From Verrucomicrobiota bacterium (lineage in GTDB: Bacteria > Verrucomicrobiota > Verrucomicrobiia > Chthoniobacterales > SZAS-18): DNA of 64,000 nt. Location: the NCBI GenBank assembly GCA_025353105.1, contig JANXRG010000072.1, forward strand, positions 1-64,000, in the 5' to 3' direction. The notes under the pieces were generated by a model. That model saw only the letters and a list, made by a program, of their open reading frames with translations, made no database searches and was not told the origin of the DNA. Made by a program: the position numbers and the translations under genes. Positions 15,939 through 29,053 of this stretch are shown piece by piece (position 1 is the stretch's first letter; each line of letters begins with the position of its first letter).

Positions 15939-16141
15939 AATGTCCCCCCGCCTCCCTTGACCTGTCGCCAAGCCTCCAGTCTCGAACAGAGTTTTGAAAA
16001 TGATTGAAGCGGGGAAAATTTAGAGAACGACCGGTTGGTTCTTCTTTGCTTTTCCGCTTTACGCTTTGTTCGAGTTTCTCGTGTAGCCGGTCTCGCTGAG
16101 GCCGGGGCGGATGGGCCGTGTAATCCGCGGATGAGATCGCA

Positions 16142-16240
16142 GGACAGAACCGTGTTGCGGTTCGATCAACGGAGGGCTTGAAACCCAGGGTTGCGGCAAC
16201 CCTTGGCTGGCAGACGCGACGCCGTTGGCGTCGAGACGCA
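16142..16240. repeat. Composite palindromic repeat, copy 1
   Basis: Three palindromes in a row: AACCG-TGTTG-CGGTT (16148-16162), GGGTTGCGGCAACCC (16188-16202) and CGACGCCGTTGGCGTCG (16217-16233). The same three blocks in the same order and orientation, with matching text around them (GGACA before the first, CTGGCAGAC before the third), recur at 26341-26438. The remaining gap to 16494 contains no gene that I can support. Confidence 0.8.
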
Positions 16241-16494
16241 ACAGAATTTCATCACGCGGCGAGGCTGGTGGAACGCGAGCGCCGGGCGCGTTGACAAGTG
16301 GGTAGGGCCAACCGTGCGCGGTCGTCCCAAACTTTCGCTTGCGACATGGCTGACGCGGAAAGTCACGCGCTGCACCGTTAGATTTTGCCATCGCGTCGGG
16401 GCAACGCGAATTACCTGGCCCGTGCCGCGACCAAACAACGGTCCCGACGGCGGCGCGACTGGACATCACGCAACGACCCGCCGATGAAGTCCAC

Positions 16495-23721: not shown

Positions 23722-23915
23722 GCGGCAAATCGGCGGAGGGTGGAACACGACCTCCGGGCGCGTTGGCGGCGACGATTCGACGAAACGTCCCGAGCTCTGC
23801 GGACAGAATGCGCCAAGCGGCAAACGAGGTGACGTTGTGGTGGTGTCCGGTGAATTGGTCAATCACTCCGCACGGGTTTGCGAACGCGTCCGAAAGTTGC
23901 GATCCGCCTGATCCC

Positions 23916-25085: not shown

Positions 25086-25871
25086 ATGTCCTCTCCCGAC
25101 CCCACTCCAACCGTTCACGTCAACACGAGCGACGGCATCCTGACCATCAGCTTGCATCGCCCGGAGAAAAAGAATGCCCTTTCGCTCGCCATGTATGTTG
25201 CGATGACCGCCGCGTTGCGCGCCGGACAGGCCGACCCGGCGGTGCGCGCGGTCGTGATGCAAGGCACGGCTGACTGCTTCACGAGTGGTAACGATATCGC
25301 CGATTTCGTCAGTGGGCCCACACCCGAGCGCCTCGCGCCGATTTTTGATTTCCTCGGCACAATCTCGACCTGCGAGAAGCCGATCGTCGCGGCGGTGAAC
25401 GGTCTCGCCGTTGGCATCGGCACGACGATGCTGCTGCACTGCGACCTCGTTTGCGCCGGCGAGAGCGCGCGCTTCCAATTGCCGTTCGTGAATCTCGGTC
25501 TGGTTCCGGAGGCAGCCTCGAGCCTGTTACTACCACGGCTCGCCGGGTCGCATCGCGCGGCGGAGCTGCTCATGCTCGGCGAAATGTTCAGCGCCGCGAC
25601 CGCGCGGGAAATCGGTTTGGTGAATCGGGTCACGCCCGACGCCGACTGTCAGGCCGCCGCGCGCGAATGGGCGGGGAAACTGGTCGCCAAGCCGGCGGCC
25701 GCATTGCGCCTGACGAAATCGCTGTTGAAGAAGGGATCCACCGCGTTGGTTCGCGAAGTCATGACCGAGGAAGGCAAACTTTTCGCTGCTCGCTTGCAGT
25801 CGCCCGAGACCGCCGAGGCGTTCACCGCGTTTCTCGAACGTCGGAAGCCGGATTTTTCAAGATTCGAATGA
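25086..25871 (+). CDS. Enoyl-CoA hydratase/isomerase family protein
   Basis: 261 residues, crotonase fold. Seen: LTISLHRPEKKNALSLAMY, oxyanion-hole segment CFTSGNDIADFV, KPIVAAVNGLAVGIGTTMLLHCDL, and FVNLGLVPEAASSLLLPRL. The NLGLVPEAASSLLLPR context resembles enoyl-CoA isomerases (one catalytic Glu) more than the two-Glu hydratases. It follows the TetR-thioesterase pair with an 87-base gap and may belong to the same acyl-CoA theme. Confidence 0.85.
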   Translation: MSSPDPTPTVHVNTSDGILTISLHRPEKKNALSLAMYVAMTAALRAGQADPAVRAVVMQGTADCFTSGNDIADFVSGPTPERLAPIFDFLGTISTCEKPIVAAVNGLAVGIGTTMLLHCDLVCAGESARFQLPFVNLGLVPEAASSLLLPRLAGSHRAAELLMLGEMFSAATAREIGLVNRVTPDADCQAAAREWAGKLVAKPAAALRLTKSLLKKGSTALVREVMTEEGKLFAARLQSPETAEAFTAFLERRKPDFSRFE

Positions 25872-25922
25872 CGACCGGGGAATAAATCCCGGGCGATCCG
25901 GCTCTTAGGTGCCACGCGGTGC

Positions 25923-26138
25923 ATGCCGCACCGCGACACCAACTCCAGGCCCACTACCCAAATAAAATTAGTCAAGACAGCCGCGCTCGCTTGTGCGCTT
26001 TCCATCAGCCTGCTCAGCGCGACCCCGGTATTCGCGTCGGACAAGGCCCTGACGATGGTCTCGATGGCGAAGAGTAAGAACGATGCCGCCACCGCCCAGA
26101 TGGTCCTTCACACGCTGATGACCGATCCGAAAAGATGA
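25923..26138 (+). CDS. Small secreted protein of unknown function
   Basis: 71 residues with a signal peptide at about 15-39 (VKTAALACALSISLLSATPVFAS). The mature part (DKALTMVSMAKSKNDAATAQ, then MVLHTLMTDPKR) is short and helical. The TGA stop overlaps an ATG in the +2 frame (26135), which starts a further 32 codons to 26233 reading MIKEMLSDKSFMSDLDQE. That text continues the style of the first protein, so a single-base frameshift may have split one gene of about 100 residues. A T-run follows at 26274-26280. Confidence 0.55.
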   Translation: MPHRDTNSRPTTQIKLVKTAALACALSISLLSATPVFASDKALTMVSMAKSKNDAATAQMVLHTLMTDPKR

Positions 26139-26340
26139 TGATCAAAGAAATGTTGTCCGACAAAAGCTTCATGAGCGACCTTGACCAGGAGCGCGCGTCG
26201 CAGGGCGCGGCGGTTGATTCCCGATCGGGTTAGCTTGATCCAGGCGGCATCGCTCAAGAGGCCGGCACCGCTTTTTTTATGGGTGTTGAGTCCGCGCACA
26301 TCGGCCGGCACGCAGTGTGTCCGATCGATTTCGACGCAAG

Positions 26341-26614
26341 GGACAAAACCGCGTTGCGGTTCGATCCAATTCAACACGTGAGCACCCAGGGTTGCGGCAA
26401 CCCTTGCTGGGCTGGCAGACACGACATCGTTGGCGTCGAAGAACGCCGGACGTTCGATTGGGCACCATCGTTTCCGTAAGCGGCGTAATTATCCCGATTG
26501 AGGAACCATGCGCCGGACACAATTTCGTCCCACGTGCGGTTCGTCCAGCCCCGAAGCGGGCTGTGCCTGCCAGCCCAAGGTTCCGCGTCGACCGACCGCA
26601 ACGCGGTTGTGTCC
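26341..26614. repeat. 274-bp element with 20-bp terminal inverted repeats, composite palindromic repeat copy 2
   Basis: The ends GGACAAAACCGCGTTGCGGT (26341-26360) and ACCGCAACGCGGTTGTGTCC (26595-26614) are inverted copies matching at 19 of 20 positions. A second inverted pair lies inside: TGGGCTGGCAGACAC (26408-26422) and GTGCCTGCCAGCCCA (26563-26577), matching at 14 of 15. The left end also has GGGTTGCGGCAACCC (26389-26403) and the near-palindrome at 26422-26438. It carries no transposase. The left 100 bases match the repeat at 16142-16240. It fills the gap 26234-26653 between convergent genes. Confidence 0.85.
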
Positions 26615-26653
26615 TGTCGCGGCGCAACCAAAGCTCCACCCGCAGTCACATTC

Positions 26654-29053
26654 TTAATGCTTCGCCGCGTGCTCGCGCATTTGCACGGGCGACGCCATGA
26701 GCTTGTCGAGCAGCGGCGTGCCGCTCGCATCATACCGCCCAAAGCTCAGCACGCCCGTCGGGCACTGCTGCACGCAGGCCGAGCACCGCACGCATTCCGG
26801 ATCCTCCATCGGCAGGCCCTTGTTCGCGAAGCTCATGATGTCGATGCCCTGGTGGCACACGCTGGTGCAGACGTTGCACGAGATGCATTTCTTCTTCTCG
26901 GCGAAGATGCGGAATTTCCCGAAGCGCGCATAAATGTGCATCAACGCCGCGAGCGGGCAGGCGAAGCGGCACCAGACGCGACCGCTGAACCAGAAATACA
27001 TACCGACGCCCAGGATCCCCGCCCAGAAAAGATCGACGAACCAGACGTAGTTGAAGAAGGGTAAATCGTGAAACAGGTAGCTGAAGCTGCGCGACGCCCA
27101 CGACTCCGGGCCAGTCACCCAACCGATCGAGCGAAAGACCATCAGGAGAAGCGCAAACGCGAGAAATACCTGACCGATCATGTTCATGCGATTCCAGAAT
27201 GGTCCGTGCGGCATCTTGGATCGCTGCGTGTCGCCGAGCGTTTCCGCGAGCGCTCCGCACGAACAGAGCCAGCCGCAATACGCACCCTTGCCCCAGCGCA
27301 TCACGATGAACGGGATGATGACAAACGTCTGGAATACCGAGATGCCGAGCCAGAGCCACATCGGCTGGTCAGTGAAGCAATTCCAAAAGAAGAGCGGCCA
27401 GGCGAGAATGAAGCCGAACGCGCGCCAGTATTCGCGGCCCAGCTCCGTGTAAGTCACGGCCGGGAAAAGCTGATCGGCGAGCCATTTCAGCGCGCCGTGA
27501 TCAAACCAGCCGTTGAGGCCCGCCCATGGGAGCAGGAGGTAGGGCATGAGGAAAAGCGGGATGATTTGCACCGCGGCAAGCGTGATGGTCTGCAGCTTCA
27601 CGTAGGGCGTGCGCCGGCGCTGGTAGCGCTTCCAGCCGAAAAGCGCGACACACAGGCAATAGGCCAGTGAGTAATAAAATCCAGGCTCGCCCAACGCGAC
27701 CTTCATCACGCCGAGAAGGTTCGTCTTGCGGCTGAACGCGGCGCCGAGCGAACCCCACCAATCAGGCACCTTGTACGGAAACCAACCGTTGTTCGCCCAC
27801 ACGTCGCCAATCGACGAGATCTGCTTGAGCACGGGCACATCGGCGATGACCACGCCCTGCTTCTTCCATTGGTACAGGAAGACCGCGAAGGCGAAGAAAA
27901 GGATGAAGCTGATCCACGTCCACGCGCGCCATTCGCCGCGGATCGGGATGCCGCTGCGCCGGAAGAAATCGAGCGGCGCTTCTCGGCCGATCATGGAAAA
28001 CACCGTGTCGTTCGGAATCGTCTCCTCGCCGTCCGCGGTCTTTAGCTTCACGGCCTCGCCCGCGATTTCCTGCACCTCCGATCCCAGCAACACGCGTAGC
28101 TTGCCGTGCGGCGAGCTCTCGCGCATCGCGTGGCTGGCGGCAGCGTTCACTCGCTCTGATTTCGGATTTTCCACGGCCACGGCCGCGGTCGGATCCTTTT
28201 CCAGCTCACGGAGCTTCTCGACATTTTCCGACTTCGCGCGGCCAAACTCCTTCGCCCGATAGCTCAAGGTCACGTCGGCCCCGCAAATCGCGCAGGCAAT
28301 CGCGGTCTCGAGCGCCGAGTCGCCGCCGCCCACCACAAGGACCCGCTTGCCGGTGAAGTCCTTGGGGTCGTAGAGCCGGTTCGAAACCTTGTCGAGTTCT
28401 TCGCCCGGCACGCCGAGCTTGCGGTAGTTTCCGCTGCGACCAATGGCAACGACGCACCGGCGCGCCTTGGTGACCCGTTTGTCGGCGTGATGCACGACGA
28501 TGTTACCACCCGTGCGCTCAACGCGGTCGATCCGGTCCTTCGTAAATTCGATGCCGGCGGCGGCGCGCTGCGCCTCGAGTTCGGCCAGGAGTGCCTCCTT
28601 GACGTTCGTGGTGAACTTCACCTCACCGGCCTGGACCATCTCCGTGGGATACGTGTAGATCGGCTTCGCCTTGGGAAAATTGACGATGGTCGAGAACGGC
28701 TCGGCCGCCTCGTAGATCTTGAACGAGAGGCCGGCCTTCTTTGCCTCGAGCGCCGCGGACAAGCCGGAGACACCGCCGCCGATGATGACAATATCGAGCA
28801 CCTCCGCGTCACCGCGTTGCCCCGCGAAGTCCGGTTCCTTCAAGATGGCCTGAACCGCGCGCGCACCCGTGTCGGCCGAAAACTTCAGCAGCGGGATCCC
28901 GCTCAAATCGCCCACGATGCGCACGCCCTTGACGACCGTCGCGCCGTCCTCGCCAACTTCGGGAAGTCGCTCGACCGTGCCGGCGGGCCAGCGCGTATGC
29001 AGCCAGCGGGTATATCCGGTGATGGGGGAGAACAGCGTTTGGGCGATGCTCAT
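26654..29053 (-). CDS. Fused thioredoxin-reductase-like flavoprotein and NosR/NapH-like membrane ferredoxin
   Basis: 799 residues. The N-terminal half is a two-dinucleotide flavoprotein: FAD site IIGGGVSGLSAA (residues 90-101), NAD(P)H site VVGGGDSALETA (241-252), and SMIGREAPLDFF closing the FAD domain. Several membrane helices follow from about 380, with the NosR/CcoG-type CGWLCSCGA and WCRFACPLAALM motifs. It ends in two 4Fe-4S clusters, CISCNVCTSVC (723-733) and CVRCSACVQQCP (754-765). The likely job is moving electrons between NAD(P)H and a membrane or periplasmic partner (inferred). It overlaps the GT2 gene by four bases. No nos or nap genes are nearby. Confidence 0.85.
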   Translation of the reverse strand: MSIAQTLFSPITGYTRWLHTRWPAGTVERLPEVGEDGATVVKGVRIVGDLSGIPLLKFSADTGARAVQAILKEPDFAGQRGDAEVLDIVIIGGGVSGLSAALEAKKAGLSFKIYEAAEPFSTIVNFPKAKPIYTYPTEMVQAGEVKFTTNVKEALLAELEAQRAAAGIEFTKDRIDRVERTGGNIVVHHADKRVTKARRCVVAIGRSGNYRKLGVPGEELDKVSNRLYDPKDFTGKRVLVVGGGDSALETAIACAICGADVTLSYRAKEFGRAKSENVEKLRELEKDPTAAVAVENPKSERVNAAASHAMRESSPHGKLRVLLGSEVQEIAGEAVKLKTADGEETIPNDTVFSMIGREAPLDFFRRSGIPIRGEWRAWTWISFILFFAFAVFLYQWKKQGVVIADVPVLKQISSIGDVWANNGWFPYKVPDWWGSLGAAFSRKTNLLGVMKVALGEPGFYYSLAYCLCVALFGWKRYQRRRTPYVKLQTITLAAVQIIPLFLMPYLLLPWAGLNGWFDHGALKWLADQLFPAVTYTELGREYWRAFGFILAWPLFFWNCFTDQPMWLWLGISVFQTFVIIPFIVMRWGKGAYCGWLCSCGALAETLGDTQRSKMPHGPFWNRMNMIGQVFLAFALLLMVFRSIGWVTGPESWASRSFSYLFHDLPFFNYVWFVDLFWAGILGVGMYFWFSGRVWCRFACPLAALMHIYARFGKFRIFAEKKKCISCNVCTSVCHQGIDIMSFANKGLPMEDPECVRCSACVQQCPTGVLSFGRYDASGTPLLDKLMASPVQMREHAAKH

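Follow-up and report, generated by a model that had tools for sequence, protein, structure and literature searches.

A transposase-free repeat in a Verrucomicrobiota genome is probably an orphan pair of three-hairpin transposase ends

Introduction

At replication forks, IS200/IS605-type enzymes bind to hairpins of single-stranded DNA and use a tyrosine to cut alongside them; their elements carry one hairpin per end, not mirrored. In REP/RAYT systems the transposase gene lies within inverted hairpin repeats, and gene-free copies and inverted pairs of these repeats (REPINs) are found between genes. The cassette system described here resembles both: it shares an HUH/Y1 enzyme and subterminal hairpins with the former, and the gene within inverted hairpin repeats, the gene-free copies and the inverted pairs with the latter. 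However, its ends are mirrored and have three hairpins each, in a fixed order, and its protein is class 1-like rather than class 2. No GTAG/GTGG foot was recognised in the aligned cassettes, as judged by eye only. We regard the system as a variant of the REP/RAYT kind whose three-hairpin ends appear to be new: the part of the literature covered contained no account of Y1 transposases with such ends.

Tyrosine transposase genes within long inverted repeats, some self-complementary and some repeated in the genome, are described as TIRYTs or TIRtrons, with the consensus motif GGGGWSAS, in the portion of Di Nocera et al. 2013 (PMC3733652) used here. Most of these (20 of 26) were placed in subclass 2.1, another protein class, according to the sections of Quentin et al. 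2018 (PMC6006769) on which we draw. The same sections define TnpAY1 subclass 1.2 by the motif Y---Q--HH, and describe its members as generally without typical terminal IS200 structures, as not sharing IS properties and as found mostly in Cyanobacteria and Bacteroidetes. The proteins that we found beside cassettes have this motif, the HUH motif and the same closeness to IS200 transposases, but they are cassette-flanked and occur in many other phyla. By their motif alone they would belong to subclass 1.2 and, since those sections present the subclass as generally lacking ends, the three-hairpin cassettes look like its missing ends. Because ends have generally not been recognised in this HUH subclass, it has been left open whether its members are mobile or domesticated; the mirrored cassettes offer it candidate substrates, which could be made synthetically and put to the test.

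Here we describe an element at 26335-26621 of the window (the whole 64,000-nucleotide stretch of DNA that was analysed), which we consider, with a probability of about 0.8, to be an orphan pair of cassettes of the type that forms the mirrored C-B-A-[tnpA]-A-B-C ends of a Y---Q--HH element.

Results

The original prediction, of a transposase-free 274-bp element (26341-26614) with inverted ends, a second inverted pair inside, short palindromes in its left part and convergent neighbours, was accurate in each of these respects. The outer arms (26341-26360 and 26595-26614) are 95% complementary (19/20 positions), the inner arms (26408-26422 and 26563-26577) are 93% complementary (14/15), and a 13-nt palindrome pair lies at 26383-26409. 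The flanking genes encode an enoyl-CoA hydratase (25086-25871, + strand) and an FAD/Fe-S protein (26654-29053, - strand). The predicted RNA fold of the element was more stable than 200 of 200 shuffles (z -5.4), and its DNA fold had a z of -4.1. Neither of the short ORFs called over it (26277-26639 and 26317-26700) had a Pfam match.

Alignment of copies in the window's genome revealed a cassette of about 104 bp with three hairpins in the fixed order A-B-C. Hairpin A has the sequence AACCGCGTTGCGGTT, hairpin B is CCCAGGG..CCCTGGG followed by CT (in aligned form CCCAGGGTTGC..GCAACCCTGGG, then CTGGCAG), and hairpin C has the sequence GACGCCGTTGGCGTC. A covariance model, R1, was built from 12 cassette units. 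The 274 bp comprise two inverted copies, the left on the + strand and the right, degenerate, on the - strand. The left cassette (26335-26440), one of the units used to build R1, was matched at 26334-26442 (E 3.3e-18); it has A at 26347-26361, B at 26385-26411, with a 4-nt insertion in the 3' arm and CT at 26412, and C at 26422-26438. The right cassette (26542-26621), which was not in the R1 input, was matched with an E of 2.0e-6; it has A at 26594-26608, a remnant of the mostly lost B with the CTGGCAG tail at 26567-26582, and a C with a variant stem at 26546-26563. Because R1 matches the right half independently, the 274 bp are two tail-to-tail cassettes, and the apparent TIRs are their A ends (left arm on the + strand, right arm on the - strand). 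To the left, 26299-26340 resembles by eye the spacer of the pair at locus L006 but for some 30 additional bases, and the left border of the family may thus lie beyond 26341.

The window's genome assembly (3.72 Mb in 121 contigs, 97.6% complete) contains a dispersed family of these structured, transposase-free repeats, as predicted. BLAST with 26301-26660 found seven other places of about 90 bp (E <= 4e-10), all covering only query positions ~40-139. The left part matched 16142-16234 with 81% identity (E 1.7e-17), and the remaining six places matched with 74-81% identity (E <= 4e-10). R1 found 14 full-length units (E <= 0.0013) at 10 loci; 12 of these were its own input, which leaves C1:2109-2213 and the right cassette at 26542-26621 (-) as independent matches. 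The match to the 16142 locus had been predicted, but as a truncated copy: it is a complete single cassette (16135-16237, + strand), aligned to R1 positions 1-104 of 104 (E 4.3e-22, in the R1 input), with A at 16148-16162, B at 16184-16206 and C at 16217-16233. This cassette and those at C95 and C117:73k are alone, with no right-hand partner. Head-to-head (A-to-A) pairs, with 21-22 nt between model ends, are the commonest pairing and occur at three loci (C119, C117:103k and C34); at C59 and C50 a second half was spotted by eye. Among the 10 loci the tail-to-tail order is confined to the window pair, which we count against our reading; this pair may be the product of two insertions or of a rearrangement.

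Across the aligned cassettes, 92.9% of stem cells were paired; the figure was 89.2% for shuffled alignments and never above 52.5% for slid ones. Both sides had changed in five pairs, and the covariation score exceeded that of 500 of 500 shuffles, as related sequences can do even without structure. Spacing was near-constant: the A-B gap was 19-22 nt in 12 units, the B-C gap was 10 nt in the nine units with C present, and CT directly followed B in 12 of 12. By ORF composition the dispersed copies are intergenic, some as inverted pairs, which is REP/REPIN-like behaviour.

The link to a transposase came from 50 Y1 loci, selected on their Pfam scores in genomes of the window's order. A tight scan of these loci for B flagged L080, L138, L150 (from the window's genus) and L151, with L153 on one side. 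The arrangement C-B-A-[Y1]-A-B-C was read in L124, L138, L150 and L151, and partially in L153. The protein beside the cassettes is an HUH/Y1 transposase of ~150 aa with the motif Y---Q--HH, which matches IS200/IS605 families and has IS608 TnpA and other IS200-like enzymes as its nearest solved structures. In a wider scan of the same loci, made after the motif was known, B flanked the gene on both sides at 18 of the 20 Y---Q--HH loci compared to none of 30 loci without the motif (Fisher p 1e-11). The two exceptions, L080 with B on one side and L147 with none, count against our reading. Among the 30, L082, L130 and L140 had a one-sided B and 27 had none. Some flanks among the 50 loci were clipped by contig ends, and the left match at L135 is long-looped and may be spurious.

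The original prediction had proposed a search for a transposase with matching ends, and none was found in the window's genome: tblastn with a same-genus Y---Q--HH transposase gave no match at E <= 10, and all eight Y1 loci lacked both the Y---Q--HH motif and a B hairpin. The cassettes are thus orphans in this assembly. That they are the GTAG REP of the genome's own RAYTs was considered and rejected, as B was present at 0 of these 8 loci.

To describe the wider distribution, we aligned five cassette-flanked proteins (A4) and scanned named genomes with the alignment. The best 80 loci among the matches listed came from Verrucomicrobiota, Planctomycetota, Acidobacteriota, Armatimonadota, Bacteroidota, Kiritimatiellota and others, as judged by the titles of their records, and 78 of them had Y---Q--HH. 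As the A4 seeds carried cassettes, the rates in these 80 loci describe the A4 clade and not all Y1 proteins. The density of perfect hairpins (stem >= 7) was 7.6 per kb over the 100 nt preceding the gene and 8.5 per kb over the 100 nt following it, and mostly less than 1 per kb beyond 800 nt, an approximately tenfold enrichment near the gene. B with CT was present upstream in 60/80 and downstream in 61/77, compared to 12/80 and 11/77 on the wrong strand, and 6/67 and 4/69 at 900-1160 nt away. Per evaluable locus (n = 77), B lay on both sides in 52, on one in 16 and on neither in nine; these nine count against our reading, although in a few of them hairpins are present, either overlooked by the script or in reverse orientation. 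With the CT requirement dropped, a stem >= 8 lay near the gene on 84 of 153 sides, followed by CT in 61. Inner and outer hairpins were also present on 44 of 153 sides, but in only 1 of 135 far windows. The left and right B arms of a locus agreed at 6.5 of 7 positions, compared to 5.5 when shuffled (maximum of 2000 shuffles, 5.85). The median A-B gap at the named genes was 22 nt (quartiles 19-24) and the median B-C gap 12 nt (quartiles 10-13). The spacing and CT of the window family match those of the transposase-flanking cassettes at these loci, and it is by this shared grammar alone that we would assign the window's cassettes to the Y---Q--HH system.

R1 matched 11 of 57 genomes and 8 of 30 genera at E <= 0.01, the window's genome being counted in both; in the matched relatives the grammar was preserved and the stems differed. 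Gene-free cassettes occur in genomes that hold the Y---Q--HH gene. The same-genus genome G001 has 15 cassette matches, including adjacent -/+ pairs, and the complete chromosome of Kiritimatiellota bacterium B12222 has 48, the gene's own locus being counted in each. One G001 locus (L066, G001:C69:75374-76295) shows four matches in direct tandem, ~269 bp apart. In B12222, at ~3.192 Mb (L235), tandem cassette arrays lie on both sides of a Y---Q--HH transposase gene.

G035, another genome of the order, has a related cassette pair in the form of a true MITE, with 14-bp TIRs, 9-bp target duplications and ISKra4-type ends. The pattern GGGTGCRGGACAAA was found there at 76 places (<= 1 mismatch), compared to 1 for the reversed pattern. 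Both flanks were read for seven copies, six gene-free and one with a Y1 gene; target duplications of 9 bp were perfect in 2/7, close (2 mismatches) in 1/7 and absent in 4/7. The same 14-bp ends enclose an ISKra4 transposase gene (NF033572, E 3.9e-69), and at C24 the order is end-C-B-A-[gene]-A-B-C-end around a Y1 transposase gene. Apparently one mobile element has taken over the ends of a second. Loci with the shared ends are L123 (G035:C46:15825-17570), L124 (G035:C24:225-1045) and L093-L122, and dozens of copies of the gene-free pair lie inside such ends.

Discussion

The data above can be read in other ways. The original prediction gave the 274 bp the form of a single MITE with 20-bp TIRs, which would be mobilised by a DDE transposase as in the ISKra4-type element of G035. 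The ends look perfect, GCAGGAC lies beside A in many copies in the window's genome, perhaps as a remnant of ISKra4 ends, and the G035 pair has been amplified inside its 14-bp ends, where two of the seven copies that could be evaluated have 9-bp duplications. However, the ends in G035 sit outside C, whereas GCAGGAC sits beside A, and the 274-bp form is unique in the window's genome, where no copy shares both the 26341 and 26614 borders. As there is no second 274-bp copy, and single cassettes as well as pairs in the opposite order are present, we reject the single MITE as very unlikely. Less likely again is a structured RNA or transcription terminator kept for its function at gene ends, to which the transposase link would be secondary. 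The stems are preserved and, at all 8 loci with readable neighbours, the window pair included, a cassette lies downstream of one or more genes (5 convergent, 3 co-directional and 0 divergent by a GC-frame heuristic, omitting C59 at a contig end and the ambiguous C50). Yet REPs likewise favour gene ends, according to the portion of PMC3733652 used here, and the mirror symmetry around a single transposase class counts against such a function. Nor did the bidirectional terminator originally suggested gain support: 26341-26614 contains no stem followed by a T run, and the one terminator-like site within 25800-26800 (26078-26097) lies outside the element. At the Rfam gathering score the window yields a tRNA only, with no family match for the element. 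Least likely of all, and hard to credit, is that A, B and C are three independent REP families that are neighbours by chance. Other palindromes (D, E and F types) do adjoin cassettes in the window's genome, but the order of A, B and C is fixed there and the gaps are near-fixed, and that order and those gaps recur around transposases in many phyla.

The orphan pair of Y---Q--HH-type ends remains our preferred reading. It seems to be what remains of the ends of a mobile element, not a mini-transposon complete in itself, and the cassette family is probably mobile. An empty-site comparison with G001 offered no site to compare, since the neighbouring gene is kept there (81% identity) and similarity stops at its 3' end. 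We infer that the Y---Q--HH enzyme binds, cleaves and mobilises the cassettes. A replication fork would expose single-stranded template in which the hairpins could fold; the transposase would then bind and cut near the cassette, and might move or copy single cassettes, A-to-A pairs or cassettes together with the gene. Gene-free cassettes would be left in intergenic sites, as is thought for RAYTs with REPs. In the window's genome the transposase would be gone or unassembled, and its orphan copies would be decaying.

It is an even bet, in our judgement, that these loci represent a cross-phylum class of single-strand-DNA transposons, in which a Y---Q--HH TnpA acts on mirrored ends of the form A, ~22 nt, B, CT, ~12 nt, C. 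The stems would drift with the transposase as the grammar stayed fixed, and gene-free cassettes and A-to-A pairs would be seeded, making a second REP world beside that of GTAG. If true, this would account for many of the palindromic repeats without a name that lie between genes in Verrucomicrobiota, Planctomycetota, Acidobacteriota and others and that are at times wrongly annotated as short ORFs.

Repeats of other kinds lie near the cassettes. A GTGG-tagged, REP-like repeat, GGTGGAACGCGACCTCCGGGCGCGTT, occurs at 16267-16292, beside the 16142 cassette, at 23739-23764 and at L037 (1270-1369), where two inverted copies surround a palindrome near one of the Y1 genes of the window's genome, like a REPIN with its RAYT. 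Palindromes of the GGGACGTTTCGGCGAAACGTCCC and GCAGCCCGCGGGCGCGGGCTGC types also lie beside cassettes (23769-23791 in the window; L007, L008 and L005), and these intergenic regions are therefore mosaics of several palindrome families.
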